From contig JAJYEE010000016.1 of NCBI GenBank assembly GCA_021790335.1, forward strand, positions 1 to 59,714: a stretch of DNA of 59,714 nucleotides, given 5' to 3'. This document shows, in pieces, positions 9,438-19,157 of this stretch. The translations under genes and the position numbers were made by a program. The first letter of the stretch is position 1, and the number at the start of each line of letters is the position of its first letter. The notes below the pieces were generated by a model. It saw only the letters and a program-made list of their open reading frames with translations. It was not told the DNA's origin and made no database searches. This DNA comes from Pseudomonadota bacterium (lineage in GTDB: Bacteria; Pseudomonadota; Gammaproteobacteria; Acidiferrobacterales; UBA6901).

Positions 9438-9445
9438 CGGCTAAA
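9438..9445. repeat. Target-site duplication, left copy (ISL3-type)
   Basis: CGGCTAAA directly borders the left end of the ISL3-type element and recurs at 10782-10789. Eight bases is the size known for ISL3-family insertions. Confidence 0.85.
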
Positions 9446-10781
9446 GGTTCTGTTGAATTTCATGTGGGTTGATTCCCGGTATGCGGATTGATTCTCGAGA
9501 AGCCCGGTTTTCCGGCGATCAGGAAGATCACCGTGCAAATGGTCGAGAATCGGCCATAGCCCCGCGCTTTCCGTTTAGCTGCCTGGGAAGAGACCATTCA
9601 GGGCCTCCAGGAAGCTGTTAGTGGCCCGCGTCTGCGCCCAGGTGAAATGCCCTCGAGGTGGGAGCGAATGAGACGCGCCACCGCCTTCATGGGTTCGACC
9701 TTGGAGCAGCAGACATTCGTGCACCATTGCTGGAGCATCGTGCGTACGACGCTGACCTGCTTGCGGTTCAGGATCTCCCGCCGCTGTTCCCGATACATCC
9801 AGGCCCGGGTAGTGCGTTGGGTCGTGATCTCGCCGATCAGCGAGTCGAGATCGGTGAGTGCGGCGGTGTTGAGGCGGCGGGAATCCTTGAGGAGCGTCCA
9901 GCGCATCCCCTTCAAGGCGGGATCGCGCTTCTGCTCTGCGCGCCGTGTGAGATCGAGTGCATGGGAAGCATGCTGGATGACGTGGAATTTGACGAAGGTG
10001 ACCCGCGCATGGGGGGGATGGTGGGCTACCCCCCCCCTTGATGAAGGCGCTCGACATGTCGAGCGACACCGACCCGATGGCCTCGGGGTCGCCCCCATGG
10101 GCCTTGAGTGCCTGGGCCAGATGTCCGATGGCGCCCGCATCGCGCTCCTCGGTCACCGCGATGACCGCGTGCCGGGCCGTGTCGGCGGCAAGTGTGACAT
10201 AGTCATGTCTCCAGGCCCGGGAGGTCTCATCGATGGTAAGACTCCGCACTTCAGAAAGATCCTGCTGGCCGATGGCAAGCTCCACGTAGCGCTCGCACAG
10301 GCCCTGACACGATGCACGCTCTCACGCCCGTGAGGCGCGCCAAGGCGCGGAAGGGCATCTCCCGACAGAAGGCGAGGATCAAGACCTCGAAGAGCAGCGT
10401 GAAGCCGGCGAGTCTTCCACCCCAGGTGGGTTCGATCTGGCGCGTACTCCCATCGGACAGTTTCACGCGCGGAACGCGCACCTCGAGGAAACACTCATGC
10501 TGAAAGAAGTTGAGGTGGCGGTAGCGCTTCGCCACTGTGACATGGGCCGGGTGTTCTCCCGCTACTTCGGGATGCCCAAACCGGCTGCCGGGGATGAAGT
10601 CCACGGCAATCGTGAGCGTCCGGGCCTTGGCATCGAAGGCCGCCTCCCGCACGAACCAGGGCGCTTCAATGCCCAAGGTTGCCTCGAACAGTCTTGTTTC
10701 CGCCATCGTCAGGACTCCTCATCCAGTTGCCTGGCGGTATTCTATCTAATGATCGGTACTCGCTCGGAATCCAACAGAGGC
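9446..10781 (-). mobile_element. ISL3-family insertion sequence, defective but with intact ends
   Basis: The element is 1336 bp, the usual ISL3 size. Its left end reads GGTTCTGTTGAATTTC (9446-9461). The reverse complement of its right end reads GCCTCTGTTGGATTCC (10781-10766), agreeing at 12 of 16 positions. Both ends are flanked by the same 8-bp CGGCTAAA. The single gene inside is a transposase read on the minus strand and broken by several frameshifts, so the copy could move only with a helper transposase. Confidence 0.88.
9460..10706 (-). pseudogene. ISL3-family transposase, multiply frameshifted
   Basis: Pieces in three frames add up to a near full-length ISL3 transposase. The N-terminal part (from ATG 10706) carries the zinc-binding-like region and the PTWGGRLAGFTLLFEV segment. 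The middle has VRSLTIDETSRAWRHDYVTL and VSLDMSSAFIKG, the first DDE residues. The next part has FVKFHVIQHASHALDLTRR, and the end reads NSFLEALNGLF, then ARGYGRFSTICTVIFLIAGK, in a third frame ending at 9460. Frame jumps occur near 10290, at the C-run 10029-10037, near 9645, and near 9585 where one extra C is enough to explain the shift. At least four lesions make it non-functional. Confidence 0.88.
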
Positions 10782-10789
10782 CGGCTAAA
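10782..10789. repeat. Target-site duplication, right copy (ISL3-type)
   Basis: CGGCTAAA, identical to 9438-9445, directly follows the right terminal repeat. Confidence 0.85.
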
Positions 10790-10927: not shown

Positions 10928-10932
10928 ATGAT
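10928..10932. repeat. Target-site duplication, left copy (IS1380/IS4-type)
   Basis: ATGAT borders the left inverted repeat and recurs at 12166-12170. Confidence 0.75.
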
Positions 10933-12165
10933 CCTAAATTCCTCAGCTACCCTGTCGCCAAGGCGATCAATCCGAGGTTTGGTTTAGGTCCGAAGGCCAA
11001 TATTCGCTCGACGATATAGCGTGCCAGCGCGAACCAGCGTTGGGGTTTGGTCAACTGCGGCGCGGTCTCCTGAATCCAGCGTATCCCATGGCGAACATTT
11101 GTGACGAGTGCCTTGATCTGGCGCGCGGATTCATGCGTGATGGTCAGCACGATTTTGTTCTGACCGGCATGGCTCGTCATGCGTCCGAGGGCACTGAGTA
11201 GTTTGGGGCGGCTGGTGATAGCTTCCAGCCGGGTCTTCGGATGCGCCAGCCGCACGTACCAGCTCCACCAGTTATAAACCAGCGCCACAGCTCGCGCACT
11301 GAGCGCGCAACGTTCGATGTCGTGCGTGCTGTAACCGCCCCACGCCCCACTGGTTCTTGATCTCGTCGAAGCTGTTCTCGCCGTCGGCACGGTCGCGGTA
11401 CAGCTGGCCGATGTTTTCCAATCCGTAGTGCGTGTTGCACACCAGCACCGCGTACCCCCAACTCTTGACCGGCGCGTTCTCGTCGATGAAGTGCAGCTCG
11501 GCCTGTGCCTGTTCTTTGTCTTTTCGTTCGGGGCGCCTGGCCTCGACCCCCAGGTCGATCTTGCGCACGCGGCGCATCACGATGACGCGGCGGCGCTGTG
11601 TCCAGTCGGTGAGTAGCAACTCGTCTTCGCACGCCTCCCAGCCCTGGTCCACCGCGCCCCAATCGCGGCGCTGCCACTGGCGCTGCACGAGCTTCTTGAC
11701 GCTGGCGCTCTGGCGCAGCTTGAACAGGAAAGGCTGACCGATACCCTCCAGTGCGCTCACATGGGCGTAGCGGCAATGTCCGCCCAGAATCGACAACACC
11801 CACGTCCCCAGCACATCGACCCGGTCGGGCGCGTTGGGGCTCGTGTAGTTCAGGAGGCAGCTCTTGAGCCATCGCTCGAACAGGCCGGTAGCTCCAGGTA
11901 CTCGGCGAAGAATGCCAGTTGACCCAACGCCGTGGCGCTGCCACGCTCGTCCCAGCGCACCGTGAATATGCCTCCCGGCGTCTGCACCCGCATCGCTTCG
12001 TCCGGCGCTTCGACCATCGCCTTGACTGCTTCCTGACACGCCGTCGCCACCGCCTTCACCGCCGGCAACTTGTGCTCACCCATCGGGGCCTCCTCGTATC
12101 AACCCCAAACCCGCGTCCAGCCTACGTTTGCGTCACATTGGCACAGATCAACTGAGGAAAATAGG
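10933..12165 (-). mobile_element. IS1380/IS4-type insertion sequence with internal deletion
   Basis: Left end CCTAAATTCCTCAG (10933-10946) and right end CTGAGGAAAATAGG (12152-12165) are inverted repeats matching at 12 of 14 positions, and both are bordered by ATGAT. Terminal repeats that begin with CC and a 4-5 bp duplication fit the IS1380 family. The element is 1233 bp, several hundred bases shorter than a normal IS1380 member. That agrees with the missing block in its transposase. Confidence 0.82.
10947..12083 (-). pseudogene. IS4-superfamily (IS1380-like) transposase, deleted and frameshifted
   Basis: The N-terminal part starts at 12083 (PGGIFTVRWDERGSATALGQ), jumps frame near 11895 into TGLFERWLKSCLLNY and VLGTWVLSILGGH, and then changes abruptly from SALEGIG to QPFLFKLRQSASVKK. 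The first catalytic Asp region normally lies between these, so a block is deleted. The signature YRDRADGENSFDEIKNQWG follows exactly the Y-x2-R-x3-E-x6-K pattern of IS4-superfamily transposases. A second frame change near 11350 leads into the C-terminal helical part, which ends at 10947 just inside the terminal repeat. Confidence 0.85.
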
Positions 12166-12170
12166 ATGAT
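12166..12170. repeat. Target-site duplication, right copy (IS1380/IS4-type)
   Basis: ATGAT, identical to 10928-10932, directly follows the right terminal repeat. Confidence 0.75.
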
Positions 12171-13534: not shown

Positions 13535-14164
13535 GTGGGGGTTTTCCGTTCTTTGACCATATTGAGCTTTCTGCTGATGCTCGCTGCCTGCGCCAGCGGA
13601 CCGCAGGTTGTCGAGCCTTCCGCCCTTGCCGGCGCGGACAAGGCATTCACTCATACCGGTGAATACAAGATCGGGGTGGCCGACCGTATTGAAGTCTCGG
13701 TCTGGCGAAATCCGGACCTGTCGGTTACCGTTCCGGTCCGTCCGGATGGCAAGATATCTGTTCCGCTGATCGGCGACGTGCGCGCCAGCGGTTTGACGGC
13801 CGAACAGGTCGCTGCCGTGATCAAAGAGAAGCTGTCCTATTACATCCGTGATCCGAATGTCACAGTGATCGTCGTGGGGCTCGAAAGCCACGAATATCTC
13901 TCACGTGTCCGTATTACGGGCGCCGTGCTGAAACCGGAGTCGATACCGTGGCGGGAAGGTATGACGGTGTTGGACGCTATCCTGGAGGCAGGCGGACCGA
14001 ATCAGTTCGCCGCAGCCGACAGCACCAAGGTTTACCGCCAGGTGGGCAAAAAGACCATCGTCATTCCCATCAATCTCGGCGCGATTTTGAACGATGGCGA
14101 TCTGGCAACGAACATCCAACTCGAACCGGGAGACGTGATCACCGTTCCGCAAAGACTTTTCTAA
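13535..14164 (+). CDS. Polysaccharide export lipoprotein, Wza-like (XrtA-associated type)
   Basis: A 209-residue outer-membrane export protein. It starts with a lipoprotein signal (hydrophobic residues 7-17, lipobox LAAC with Cys at 19). The Poly_export domain follows (EYKIGVADRIEVSVWRNPDL to about residue 110), then a SLBB domain (VRITGAVLKPESIPWREGMT, residues about 125-200). It forms the secretin-like ring through which polymer leaves the periplasm. Length and order of the four following genes match the small export protein of exosortase/PEP-CTERM polysaccharide loci. It is the first gene of an operon running to 19157. The start is GTG, forced by an upstream stop codon, with a G-run in place of a normal ribosome-binding site. 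Confidence 0.88.
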   Translation: MGVFRSLTILSFLLMLAACASGPQVVEPSALAGADKAFTHTGEYKIGVADRIEVSVWRNPDLSVTVPVRPDGKISVPLIGDVRASGLTAEQVAAVIKEKLSYYIRDPNVTVIVVGLESHEYLSRVRITGAVLKPESIPWREGMTVLDAILEAGGPNQFAAADSTKVYRQVGKKTIVIPINLGAILNDGDLATNIQLEPGDVITVPQRLF

Positions 14165-14195: not shown

Positions 14196-15752
14196 TTGGA
14201 CATGGATTTGCCTTCCGAACAATTATTCCAAGCGCTGGCACGCGAGGCGTTCGTACATCGAAAGACGATCGTGGCACTGTTTGTCGTCATCAGTTTGTGC
14301 ACGGCGATAGTGGGCCTGTTTTGGCCGCAGCGCTATACTTCCTCCACGACGATTCTTGTCCAGAGCAAAAACATAATCCAGCCGTTGATGCATGGAACGG
14401 CTGTCGATACCGGCGAAACCAGCCGGGCGAGCGTCGCGCGTGCGATGATCTACGGCCATCACATCATGGCTCAGTTAGCCCGTGACACCGGCTGGATTAA
14501 CAGCAAAACTACCCCGAAGCAGGAATCCAACATTATCCACGGGATACTCATCCCGCACACCAGCGTTACCCACGTCGGCGACAACAGGAATCTGATCAGA
14601 ATCCAGTACACCGATTCCAACCCCCAGCGCGCCTATCTCGCTGCCAAGGACTTGACCAATCTGTTTATTGCGGCGACGCTTGCGGCCAAGGCTAAGGAAA
14701 GCCAGGATGCGTTCAACTTCATTAATCAGCAGGTGCTTCAGTACCGGGCGAAGCTCACGGATGTCGAGAACGCGCTGAAGAAATTCCAGACCGCCAACCT
14801 GACGACAAGGCCTGGTAGCGAAGGGCAGATCGGAAAAAGGCTGAGCAATCTCCAGGACAACATCGACAAGACCAGCGAGGAACTCAAGGAGACCGAGATC
14901 AAGCAGAACTCGCTGACCAAGCAGCTCAACGGGGAGGCGCAGGCAACGGCTGAGTATGTGCTTGAGGGTCAGTACGAAGCGCGCATCGCCAAACTTCAGG
15001 GACAGCTGGCCACGCTGCGGCTCAACTACCGCGATACCTATCCGGACATTGTGCAGATCAAGCACGAGATTGCGGACCTGAGGCGCGACATCGAGATGAG
15101 TCGCAAGAAGGCGCAGGAGGGCAGGACCGCCGGCAGTCACCCGGCTTTCAACGAAAGCATGGTTCTCAATCCCCTGTACCAGCATCTGCGCCAGGAATTG
15201 TCCCTGACGCGGACGCGGATCGCGACGCTGAGTGTACGCCTGTCCGATTACCGCAAGCTCATGGCCGAGGAGCTCAAGCGCGGGCGTGAAGTCCACAGCG
15301 GTGAGGCGACCCTGGCCGAACTGACGCGAGACTATACGGTCAACCGCGACATCTACCAGGATCTGCTCAGGCGCCGGGAGATTGCACGCGTTACCATGAA
15401 CCTGGATAAGCAGAAGGAGGGTCTCACCTTCCAGATCCAGAGTCATGCAGAATTGCCTCACGAGCCGGAAGGTCTGCGATTCGCTGACTTTATCTTCGGC
15501 GGATTCTTCCTGGGATTGGCACTGCCCATCGGACTTCTGTATGCCAAGCTGCAGTTCGATCCACGTGTCTGCACGGGATCGGTTATTGCCGAGAAGATGA
15601 AGCTGCCTCTGATGGCGGTTGTACCGCATCTGTTTACTCCCACGGAGAACGAGGCAACGATGCGGAACCTGAGCCGGCTCGGCATGGTGATGGTGGCGGA
15701 CGTGATGGTGCTTGCGGGACTCTCTGTCTTGAAAGTGACTGGGGTGATCTGA
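14196..15752 (+). CDS. Chain-length determinant protein (PCP, XrtA-associated)
   Basis: A 518-residue inner-membrane polysaccharide co-polymerase. The first Wzz-like membrane helix is at about residues 27-47, followed by the periplasmic WPQRYTSSTTILVQ strand. A long coiled-coil region runs through residues 170-400 (with repeated L-x-E/K heptads), and a proline-containing segment LPHEPEGLRFADFIFGGFFLGL enters the second membrane helix. An extra C-terminal helix closes the chain. It sets polymer length and bridges the polymerase to the outer-membrane exporter. It has no fused kinase domain; the kinase-like protein is the next gene, beginning 2 bases after this stop codon. The 31-base gap to the lipoprotein gene supports one transcript. 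Confidence 0.88.
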   Translation: MDMDLPSEQLFQALAREAFVHRKTIVALFVVISLCTAIVGLFWPQRYTSSTTILVQSKNIIQPLMHGTAVDTGETSRASVARAMIYGHHIMAQLARDTGWINSKTTPKQESNIIHGILIPHTSVTHVGDNRNLIRIQYTDSNPQRAYLAAKDLTNLFIAATLAAKAKESQDAFNFINQQVLQYRAKLTDVENALKKFQTANLTTRPGSEGQIGKRLSNLQDNIDKTSEELKETEIKQNSLTKQLNGEAQATAEYVLEGQYEARIAKLQGQLATLRLNYRDTYPDIVQIKHEIADLRRDIEMSRKKAQEGRTAGSHPAFNESMVLNPLYQHLRQELSLTRTRIATLSVRLSDYRKLMAEELKRGREVHSGEATLAELTRDYTVNRDIYQDLLRRREIARVTMNLDKQKEGLTFQIQSHAELPHEPEGLRFADFIFGGFFLGLALPIGLLYAKLQFDPRVCTGSVIAEKMKLPLMAVVPHLFTPTENEATMRNLSRLGMVMVADVMVLAGLSVLKVTGVI

Positions 15753-15754
15753 GC

Positions 15755-16675
15755 ATGAGCAAAATCGAAGAAGCGCTCAGACAGGCCCAGAGCATGAGAC
15801 GCTCGCAGGGGTCGCGGCCGGAATCGGCGACCGGGCGGGCGCTCGTGCGCGCGCCTGGTTCGGAAGTCGCGGAACTCGAAAAGCGCGGCCATGCCCGTGA
15901 TGAGATCGCGCGCATGGCCGATACCGACCGCATCAGCGGGCAGGAACTCGCAGAAGGCAGGATCATCTATCCGGACATGCGCGACGACCGCACTGTCGAT
16001 GCGTTCCGGGAGTTGCGGACCAAATTGATCCAGAAAGGCGGTTCCGAAAACATGGTGCTGATGGTCACATCGGTTACTGCCGGCGACGGGGCGACGTTTG
16101 TGGCACGCAATCTTGCGGTGTCGTTTGCGTTCGACGAAGGCAAGACGGCGCTGCTGATCGACTGTAACCTGCGCAATCCCGGGCTCATGAAAAAAAGCGG
16201 AACGGAAATTCAGCGCGGTCTGACGGATTATCTGGAAGCCGCAGACTTGCCGGTAGAGGAAATAATCTATCAGGTGGGGATACCGCGACTGCGGCTGATT
16301 CCCTCTGGCGCGCGCCGCGAGATTTCAAGCGAATATTTCACCTCAGTCAAGATGCGGCGGCTGCTGGAAGCACTGAAGGCACGATACGCGGAACGCTACG
16401 TGGTTCTCGATGCACCGGCCGTAATGGAGTCGGCAGACAGCCGGATTCTCGCTGAGCTTGTCGATTACGTTCTGCTCGTGGTCCCGTATGGCAAGGTGAA
16501 TGAAGCCCAGATCCTGGCAGCCGCCAGGGCCATCGGGGCACAAAAGCTCGTGGGGATCGTATTCAACAACGAACCCCGAACATTGAACCCATTTCGTGAT
16601 CTGTGGCCATGGGCCGGTTCGCTGCCGGGAATTTCTTGGCTGGTAGGGTTGTTGCGGCATCGGGCTGGGGCGTGA
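15755..16675 (+). CDS. BY-kinase-like protein with degenerate Walker A (XrtA-associated)
   Basis: A 306-residue cytoplasmic member of the CpsD/CapB tyrosine-autokinase family. The family start MSKIEEALRQA, the strand NMVLMVTSVTAG and the later VVLDAPAVMESADSRILAEL (Walker B-like) are all recognisable. The P-loop reads AGDGATF (109-115), where an active enzyme has G-E-G-K-T/S: the ATP-binding lysine is Ala113. The Walker A' motif reads LLIDCNLR instead of LLIDxDxR, and no tyrosine cluster is present at the C-terminus. It is therefore probably a non-catalytic relative that acts structurally on the chain-length protein. It sits between intact genes of the same operon, so loss of the kinase activity rather than of the gene appears to be tolerated. 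Confidence 0.85.
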   Translation: MSKIEEALRQAQSMRRSQGSRPESATGRALVRAPGSEVAELEKRGHARDEIARMADTDRISGQELAEGRIIYPDMRDDRTVDAFRELRTKLIQKGGSENMVLMVTSVTAGDGATFVARNLAVSFAFDEGKTALLIDCNLRNPGLMKKSGTEIQRGLTDYLEAADLPVEEIIYQVGIPRLRLIPSGARREISSEYFTSVKMRRLLEALKARYAERYVVLDAPAVMESADSRILAELVDYVLLVVPYGKVNEAQILAAARAIGAQKLVGIVFNNEPRTLNPFRDLWPWAGSLPGISWLVGLLRHRAGA

Positions 16676-16678
16676 CGC

Positions 16679-18058
16679 GTGGGGGGCGCGGGCAAGGGGG
16701 AATATTGCAGAACGTGGTGGCCGACTGCCCTCGGACTGATTTTTTTTTCCATCCCCACGCTGGCGGCGGCAACCGAGCTGGGATATGGACTGGGCTACAG
16801 CGCAGTGCACAGCAACAACATGGCACTTTCCAGCACTGATCCACGTGCCGACTGGCTCAATATCGCCAAGGGAAAACTGGCGCTGCAGGAGAACGACCTG
16901 CAGAATTTCAGCGCACGCGTCTATTCGCAGCTGGAGTATGACGATTACCAGCATCAGGTTTTCAGCAACCAGACCCTGTTCACGCTGAATTCGGCCGCGA
17001 CGTGGATGATCAAGCCCCAGAGCCTGAGCTGGACCGCAGAGGACTACTACGGGCAGGTCCCGATAATTCCGTTTGCAACCGTTACGCCCAACAATATCCA
17101 GAACGTCAATGTGTTCACAACGGGCCCGAACATGGTGGTGCGCATGGACCCACTGAACACGCTGGCATTCGGGGCACGTTACGATAACTTCCATGCCGGT
17201 GTCGCCAATAACAATTCAAACCGCGTCGGCGGCTTTGTCGGATGGCTTTACCAGTACTCCCCGGTCACGGTTTTCTCGCTCAATTACCATGGCACGCACG
17301 CCAAGTACACCCAGAACGTCGCGGCGTCCGGCTATAACCGGCAGGATCTGTTCCTGCGCATGAACACGCACCTGCAGGAGACCGCATGGGTCGCGGATCT
17401 CGGCGGTACCTGGCTGACCCAGACCGGTCCGGGAAGCGTGAATGGCGTCTATGCGAGGCTGTTGGCTTCCCACCGGCTGACGGAAAGTTCGACGGTCGGC
17501 GTGACAGCCATGTCTACGATCACCGATACCGAGGACGCGATTCTGTCAGCCGAAACCGTGGGAGGGATCTCCGGCGGCACTAGCGTAGGTACCGATATCT
17601 ATCGCCAGGACAGCGTGAGCACGACATATACGTACAGCGCGGGCTATAGTACGGATTCGATCAGTCTTTTCGACCAGAAACTCAAGTACTACACGGCTCC
17701 GCTCGATCAGCTGCAGACGGGTGCGGGTGTCCAGATGGGTTACCAGTTTTCCGGCACGCTTCTCGGAAGCATTTTCGGCAGCTACGCCAGGTCGAAGTTT
17801 TACGAGAGCTCGGTCATCAACCGCATCGGGCAGGGAGGCGCACGATTGACGTATGAGGCGCGTCCCAACATCTTTCTGGCACTGGAAGGCCAGGTGACAC
17901 GCCAGCAAAGCAATGCCGCTGCGAACTCATACTCGGAAAAGCGCATCGTCCTGAGCATTTCGTACTACAGCAACTTCGCGTTCGTGAATGCGGGCAACGT
18001 GGCTCCATCGCTGATGGAACAGGACAACATTGCAAGGGACATCATGTACAGCCGGTAA
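16679..18058 (+). CDS. Outer-membrane beta-barrel protein of exosortase-type polysaccharide locus
   Basis: A 459-residue protein with a signal peptide (hydrophobic stretch ALGLIFFSIPTLAAA). The rest alternates short amphipathic strands and turns with many Tyr, Asn, Ser and Gly, and ends in a beta-rich tail (IVLSISYYSNFAFV then the last few residues). This matches the PEP-CTERM-associated outer-membrane protein family found at this position. It may form the outer-membrane channel or a polymer-guiding porin beside the Wza-like protein. The GTG start lies 3 bases after the kinase-like stop codon. ATG starts further in would cut into the signal peptide. Confidence 0.8.
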   Translation: MGGAGKGEYCRTWWPTALGLIFFSIPTLAAATELGYGLGYSAVHSNNMALSSTDPRADWLNIAKGKLALQENDLQNFSARVYSQLEYDDYQHQVFSNQTLFTLNSAATWMIKPQSLSWTAEDYYGQVPIIPFATVTPNNIQNVNVFTTGPNMVVRMDPLNTLAFGARYDNFHAGVANNNSNRVGGFVGWLYQYSPVTVFSLNYHGTHAKYTQNVAASGYNRQDLFLRMNTHLQETAWVADLGGTWLTQTGPGSVNGVYARLLASHRLTESSTVGVTAMSTITDTEDAILSAETVGGISGGTSVGTDIYRQDSVSTTYTYSAGYSTDSISLFDQKLKYYTAPLDQLQTGAGVQMGYQFSGTLLGSIFGSYARSKFYESSVINRIGQGGARLTYEARPNIFLALEGQVTRQQSNAAANSYSEKRIVLSISYYSNFAFVNAGNVAPSLMEQDNIARDIMYSR

Positions 18059-18065
18059 TACGATC

Positions 18066-19157
18066 ATGTACCTCGAATTCTACAAGCTGCACGAGCATCC
18101 ATTCCAGCTCACACCGGATTCGGACTTTTTGTACATGAGCGAGTCGCACGCGCGCGCCAAAGCCTATATGGATTATACGATCTGGAACCGGGACGGCTTT
18201 GTGGTCGTCACCGGTGAGATCGGTGCCGGCAAGACAACGCTTCTTCAGAAGCTGCTTTCCGAGTTCGATGACACCGCCGCGGTTGCCAAGATCTATCAGA
18301 CACAGCTCGACGAAATTCAGTTTCTGCAGGCGGTGCTCGTGGAATTCGGGCTCAGTCCATTCAATGCCTCGAAAGTCGAGCTCATGGACATGTTGAGCAC
18401 CTTTTTGATAGACAGCTTTCTTCAGTCCAAGCAGCTGGTCCTTATCGTGGACGAGGCCCAGAACCTCAGCCCCAAGGTTCTCGAAGAGATCCGCATGCTT
18501 TCGGGTCTGGAAACGCAGAAGGAAAAGATTCTGCACGTGATCCTCGTCGGGCAGCCCGAGCTCAATGACATACTGGACTCCCCTGAAATGGAGCAGTTGC
18601 TCCAGAGAGTGCGTCTGCGCTGCCATATCTCGGCACTGTCGGACAGGGAGACAAGGGACTATGTCTACCACCGGCTGCGGGTCGCCGGGGCGGGAGATCG
18701 GCTATTATTCGATCCGGACGCACTGCCGATGGTCTATGAATACACCGGAGGCATTCCTCGGCTTATCAATGTCCTGTGCGATATGGCTTTGACCTGCGCC
18801 TTTACCGACAGGTCTCCGACGGTAACCGTTGCCAGCCTGAAGACCGCCATAGGGGAGCTGCGGTGGAAGCCCTATTCGGAGAGGGTCAAGGCGCGGGTCC
18901 GGCTCCAGAAAGCGTCCGGGAAAAACCGTGAACTGCGGCATCTTATCGAGGAAAATTCCAAACGGCTGTCGGAACTGACCGAACGCCTTGGCAGAATCAA
19001 TGAAATCACGCCGCTGCTTTCGGATATCGCCAGCGGCATTTCGGCCATCGAGCGGGCCCTCGGGCGCGTTGCCGTGTCCCAGGACCAGGACCCGGCGATG
19101 AAGCAGAAGGCGGCGGGACCGGGATCGCAGAAAAAGGGATCACAGAAGCCGTTTTGA
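18066..19157 (+). CDS. ExeA/GspA-type AAA ATPase, XrtA-associated
   Basis: A 363-residue AAA ATPase. The N-terminus MYLEFYKLHEHPFQLTPD is the family hallmark. Walker A GEIGAGKTTL spans residues 50-59, Walker B LVLIVDEAQNL about 121-131, and arginine-containing sensor segments follow. The C-terminus is charged and coiled, without a peptidoglycan-binding domain. In exosortase polysaccharide loci this ATPase always accompanies the kinase and barrel genes; its exact job (assembly of the export machine or control) is unknown. Unlike the kinase-like protein, all its catalytic motifs are intact. I place the start at the ATG 18066, which matches the family; a start at 18030 would overlap the barrel gene. 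Confidence 0.87.
   Translation: MYLEFYKLHEHPFQLTPDSDFLYMSESHARAKAYMDYTIWNRDGFVVVTGEIGAGKTTLLQKLLSEFDDTAAVAKIYQTQLDEIQFLQAVLVEFGLSPFNASKVELMDMLSTFLIDSFLQSKQLVLIVDEAQNLSPKVLEEIRMLSGLETQKEKILHVILVGQPELNDILDSPEMEQLLQRVRLRCHISALSDRETRDYVYHRLRVAGAGDRLLFDPDALPMVYEYTGGIPRLINVLCDMALTCAFTDRSPTVTVASLKTAIGELRWKPYSERVKARVRLQKASGKNRELRHLIEENSKRLSELTERLGRINEITPLLSDIASGISAIERALGRVAVSQDQDPAMKQKAAGPGSQKKGSQKPF

Follow-up and report, generated by a model that had tools for sequence, protein, structure and literature searches.

According to the current model, PCP-2 proteins depend on repeated rounds of tyrosine phosphorylation to control the length of their polymer. Octamers of Wzc are driven apart by tyrosine phosphorylation, and the K540M variant, the structures of which contain MgADP, gives stable unphosphorylated octamers (PMC11986026). 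A phosphorylation-free alternative is already suggested by HfsB of Caulobacter crescentus and by EcpK (MXAN_7447) of Myxococcus xanthus, a BY pseudokinase that binds its polysaccharide co-polymerase (PCP), is needed for EPS and was proposed by its authors to act as a scaffold; further pairs of pseudokinase and PCP were listed in the same study (PMC12004946). The combination of a short OPX protein with a beta-barrel, for its part, has been described as a composite translocon (PMC9601211).

Here we consider a gammaproteobacterial protein of 306 residues that lacks the Walker A lysine and is encoded directly behind a PCP gene. It lies in a window of 59,714 nucleotides, by which we mean the whole stretch of DNA analysed (contig JAJYEE010000016.1 of assembly GCA_021790335.1). 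The features referred to below are as follows:

13535..14164, + strand: short OPX export protein (TIGR03027, 202.5 bits, cut-off 180)
14196..15752, + strand: PCP (Wzz/TIGR03007, 324.7 bits, cut-off 278.85)
15558..15632, + strand: DPRVCTGSVIAEKMKLPLMAVVPHL, residues 455-479 of the PCP, a cytoplasmic segment and candidate for a docking element, conserved among the PCPs of lysine-less loci
15755..16675, + strand: lysine-less BY-kinase-like protein, 306 residues (ORF with ATG start, TIGR03018 match below cut-off, predicted fold)
16079..16099, + strand: degenerate Walker A, AGDGATF, residues 109-115 (from the sequence)
16151..16180, + strand: Walker A', LLIDCNLRNP (from the sequence)
16400..16420, + strand: Walker B, VVLDAPA, with Asp219 retained (from the sequence)
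16568..16672, + strand: C-terminal tail of 35 residues, net charge +2, modelled as short helices at low confidence
16679..18058, + strand: outer-membrane beta-barrel (BBP2_2; Pfam PF10082, 28.2 bits, cut-off 23.7)
18030..19157, + strand: AAA ATPase resembling TIGR03015 (311.3 bits, under its cut-off of 324.5; PF13401, 91.4 bits, cut-off 27), the P-loop being intact

The 306-residue protein scores 189.7 bits against TIGR03018 (XrtA-associated tyrosine autokinase), below the curated cut-off of 230.65, and a Pfam search with it returned no match at E <= 0.1. Its predicted structure (AlphaFold2, mean pLDDT 76.4, pTM 0.71) nevertheless has the fold of a BY-kinase, since it aligns to the solved structures of CapAB, Wzc, Etk, VpsO and BceF with Z between 22.9 and 26.2, well above the next match, MinD, at 17.0. 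The catalytic motifs are another matter. Neither the expected Walker A sequence, GxGK[ST], nor the test pattern GxxxxGK[ST] is present, and the position of the lysine is taken by Ala113 (codon GCG, 16091-16093); the DxDxR of Walker A' reads DCNLR, with Asn138 replacing the second Asp; and the last 35 residues, where a Tyr-rich tail would be expected, contain no tyrosine at all. Walker B, in contrast, conforms to the pattern hydrophobic-D-x-P. The sequence-only reading of this gene had pointed out these three losses, together with a retained fold and operon position, and each of these observations holds. As judged from sequence and model, the protein thus combines a BY-kinase fold with the absence of the key catalytic residues and of the tyrosines that are phosphorylated, as is expected of a pseudokinase.

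A missing lysine could also reflect a decaying gene, or an error of sequencing or assembly, and a sequencing error restoring Lys113 had been named beforehand as an observation that would overturn the pseudokinase reading. Nothing was found in favour of this explanation, and the data refute it. The protein of a sister assembly, 94% identical, has Ala at the same position, and a relative at 74% identity has Ser; since a change from GCG to AAG takes two base substitutions and the sister assemblies lack the lysine as well, Ala113 is no sequencing error. The gene, itself intact, is under purifying selection, as follows from dN/dS values of 0.09 and 0.12 against the two nearest relatives (Nei-Gojobori), and, as shown next, the absence of the lysine is common to a whole clade.

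Loci were pooled from relatives, from a genome collection and from the class and phylum of the window, giving 113 distinct family sequences, of which 66 lack the Walker A lysine; 62 of these 66 have A, S, G, T or C at position 113. In a tree of 116 rows, calculated by a quick method from an alignment without the Walker A and A' columns and rooted at the midpoint, one branch with an SH-aLRT of 100 separates all 54 lysine-less rows from all 62 lysine-bearing ones, position 113 being K in 62/62 of the latter and in 0/54 of the former. Because the method was a quick one, we use the tree solely for this split and not for the branching within the two groups. The number of sequences concerned and their confinement to one side of the branch argue that the absence of the lysine is not due to chance, and the question whether the Ala is shared by a clade can be answered in a broader form: the loss of Lys is clade-wide, mostly with one of the residues listed above in its place. 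That we speak of loss rather than gain is based on the conservation of the lysine in active BY-kinases and not on the midpoint-rooted tree. A profile of the clade found matches at E <= 1e-50 in 30 of 370 genomes of the window's class; in four of the 30 the best match retains Lys (L115-L118), leaving the lysine-less clade in 26 of the 370 sampled genomes, and in a survey of the phylum all 11 matches fell in the same class. One carrier that can be cultured is Alkalilimnicola ehrlichii, with locus L042. Plasmids yielded only matches below 60% identity, the best of which is annotated as an XrtA-associated tyrosine autokinase. Two distant BY-kinase-like proteins, L145 and L146, carry GEGRS, so that the Walker A lysine is replaced by Arg, whilst their Walker A' has an intact DAD.

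The surroundings of the gene are conserved as well. The order OPX, PCP, kinase-like protein, barrel and ATPase recurs in 10/10 lysine-less loci of the genome collection, the first four genes of this order in 20/20 further lysine-less loci, and the PCP gene adjoins the kinase-like gene in all 30 lysine-less loci checked. The TIGR03007 match spans residues 17-511 of the 518 residues of the PCP, which has no kinase domain of its own, so that the lysine-less protein is encoded with just the type of PCP expected to accompany a stand-alone pseudokinase, and the adjoining PCP is likely to be its partner. Among solved structures, this PCP is matched best by PslE, a biofilm formation protein (E 5.3e-08), with which the cytoplasmic segment DPRVCTGSVIAEKMKLPLMAVVPHL aligns; by analogy with EcpK/EpsV and CapAB (PMC12004946), this segment may be the docking element for the lysine-less protein. 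Just upstream of the export operon, two stretches (9441-10782 and 10931-12166) are missing from the sister locus L036, and both contain broken ORFs that resemble transposase remnants, as recognised by eye.

Could the protein instead act in trans with a different BY-kinase, as its substrate or its regulator, for instance in a heteromer with an active kinase? Several genomes of the clade do carry a second, lysine-bearing kinase, and given how many lysine-less genomes have lysine-bearing kinases, effects in trans are possible in those genomes. Statements about whole genomes rest here on profile searches, and the assembly of the window is 97.6% complete; within it, the TIGR03018 search gave four further matches, and no other BY-kinase was detected among them. 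The two stronger ones were considered as candidates for a second BY-kinase but look like FlhG and Mrp; for the two weakest, at 22.5 and 22.3 bits, the stretch inspected showed no ORF with a standard P-loop. In all, seven genomes, that of the window included, combine the lysine-less protein with a single TIGR03018 match at E <= 1e-25. For the six others (G088, G108, G132, G228, G235, G292) this sole match sits at the lysine-less protein in five, and we infer the same for G235. With no second match at this threshold in these seven genomes, and no tyrosine tail on the lysine-less protein, a role in trans is highly improbable. A search for low-molecular-weight phosphatases in the window's genome gave four matches, three of them over the cut-off, which we do not use as evidence because such proteins have other roles.

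The sequence-only reading had suggested a comparison with the XrtA-associated autokinases, a label that turns out to be misleading. Between 13535 and 19157 of the window, the XrtA-named export models TIGR03027 and TIGR03007 do score over their cut-offs, and TIGR03015 below, but the kinase-like protein itself falls below that of TIGR03018, and an exosortase search (TIGR02602) of the window's genome (G000) gave no match. The same search found a match in 12 of 20 further genomes, and in eight of these 12 (G002, G003, G004, G012, G017, G021, G175, G353) the exosortase lies approximately 15-36 kb from a lysine-bearing kinase on the same contig; the distance from the lysine-less gene to the exosortase is approximately 154 kb in G012 and 130 kb in G017. 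The exosortase-neighbouring kinases of these eight genomes belong to a lysine-bearing group that mostly lacks a Tyr tail, a separate group consisting of L030, L115, L117, L128-L139, L143 and L144. Since the exosortase is found near this different kinase, the lysine-less locus is best understood as related to the XrtA export locus but distinct from it and independent of exosortase, and 'XrtA-associated tyrosine autokinase' is an unsafe name for the lysine-less proteins. Our literature search returned no paper joining XrtA with a tyrosine autokinase, and the passages of the 2006 PEP-CTERM paper that were searched do not deal with this kinase.

The lysine was not lost on its own. In the column of the second Walker A' Asp, the lysine-less clade has N in 78%, R in 10%, D in 10% and H in 2% of its members, compared to D in 100% of the tailed kinases, and at least two tail tyrosines are found in 45/45 tailed kinases versus 1/54 lysine-less proteins. 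These figures bear on the idea of an active but unorthodox kinase, in which another basic residue would substitute for the lysine and the target tyrosines would lie elsewhere. The clade does conserve basic residues (K130, R85, R88, R210 and R214), and only 2/17 members of the separate lysine-bearing group, several of which lie near an exosortase, have at least two tail tyrosines, so that kinases presumed to be active do not always have a Tyr tail. R214, however, is conserved in the lysine-bearing groups too and is therefore no special replacement for the lysine, and with the second Walker A' Asp also gone in 90% of the clade and the tyrosine tail missing, we find it highly improbable that these proteins are active in this way.

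Other parts of the active site have been kept. Walker B Asp219 is D in 96% of the clade (100% in the lysine-bearing groups), the first Walker A' Asp, Asp136, is kept at 89%, and Gly112 is conserved at 83%; the clade also shows motifs of its own, such as LVVPYG. Given that the two Asp residues are retained, which is not the case in EcpK, selection may still act on the binding of some ligand, and since Wzc K540M holds MgADP, nucleotide binding need not be lost along with the Walker A lysine. One could thus imagine a pseudokinase without phosphotransfer that senses nucleotide: ATP or ADP-Mg would be bound by the two Asp residues together with what is left of the P-loop backbone, and this binding would switch the grip on the PCP. 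Against this, some P-loops of the clade have few or no glycines (SGEEQPPYF, APGNDSSVT, NSSETSGLI), and the conserved Asps may be structural, and we consider such a sensor a tentative though real possibility. A wider form of the idea, in which a long-lived lineage descending from a single loss has retained nucleotide binding to serve as a switch, in a whole type of exopolysaccharide export operon that works without tyrosine phosphorylation or exosortase, strikes us as rather unlikely; if it were true, Wzc-type systems could dispense with the phosphorylation cycle that is regarded as essential to them, and binding of nucleotide or partner would drive the cycle of the PCP.

Taken together, the protein is probably a BY pseudokinase that has lost phosphotransfer and been retained as a structural partner of the adjoining PCP. 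The pseudokinase assignment, already suggested from the sequence alone, is well supported, in that the clade as a whole has lost Lys113 along with the second Asp and the Tyr tail, with fold and operon kept and no other BY-kinase detected in the window's genome. Since this loss is common to a large family of related bacteria, the protein probably serves as a structural partner, and not as an enzyme, in the assembly of the export machine. In the simplest case, an ancestor of the gammaproteobacterial clade would have lost phosphotransfer a single time, and the stand-alone kinase-like domain would have persisted for its structural role beside the neighbouring PCP. By analogy with EcpK/EpsV, CapAB and Wzc, it would dock on the cytoplasmic segment of the PCP and steady the PCP ring, in the manner of the unphosphorylated Wzc K540M octamer, and the polymer would then be made, and exported through the short OPX protein and the beta-barrel, without a cycle of tyrosine phosphorylation. 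PCP binding, scaffolding of the oligomer and an effect on chain length are all suggested by these related systems, and the proposal that chain length is controlled without phosphorylation, put forward in the sequence-only reading, would likewise draw on the neighbouring PCP and on EcpK. No biochemistry or genetics on the lysine-less clade was found in the literature. With a pseudokinase beside its PCP in genomes where no other BY-kinase was detected, the phosphorylation-free model becomes directly testable.

Among known systems, the best family match is TIGR03018, with which the protein shares its position beside TIGR03027 and TIGR03007 genes and its N-terminus, MSKIEEAL, found in many members; unlike those kinases, it scores below the cut-off, has neither Lys, DxD nor Tyr tail, and comes from a genome without an exosortase match. 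CapB of Staphylococcus aureus and Wzc of Escherichia coli have the same fold, with Z reaching 26.2 and 25.9, but in these active enzymes the Walker A Lys, the DxD motif and a Tyr tail are all present; CapAB K55M and Wzc K540M can be considered engineered counterparts of the natural lysine-less state. HfsB is, as our protein probably is too, a BY pseudokinase paired with a PCP (HfsA) (PMC12004946), although, compared by description, it belongs to a holdfast pathway and to another bacterial class. EcpK resembles the lysine-less protein in being a stand-alone BY-kinase fold without key catalytic residues and Tyr tail, and in having a PCP without kinase domain in a pathway with short OPX protein and beta-barrel (PMC9601211). 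It differs, again by description, in that all three of its Walker motifs are lost and its gene lies apart from the PCP gene, whereas in the lysine-less clade Walker B and the first Asp of Walker A' are retained and the gene follows the PCP gene directly. In literature largely outside subscription journals, we found no description of the clade, of its grouping on one branch, of an active site that is kept in part, or of its exosortase-free operon. PCP-paired BY pseudokinases have thus been described before, in EcpK and HfsB, and the gammaproteobacterial clade is new to this kind, adding a lineage in which the pseudokinase lies directly beside its PCP, in some genomes with no other BY-kinase detected.
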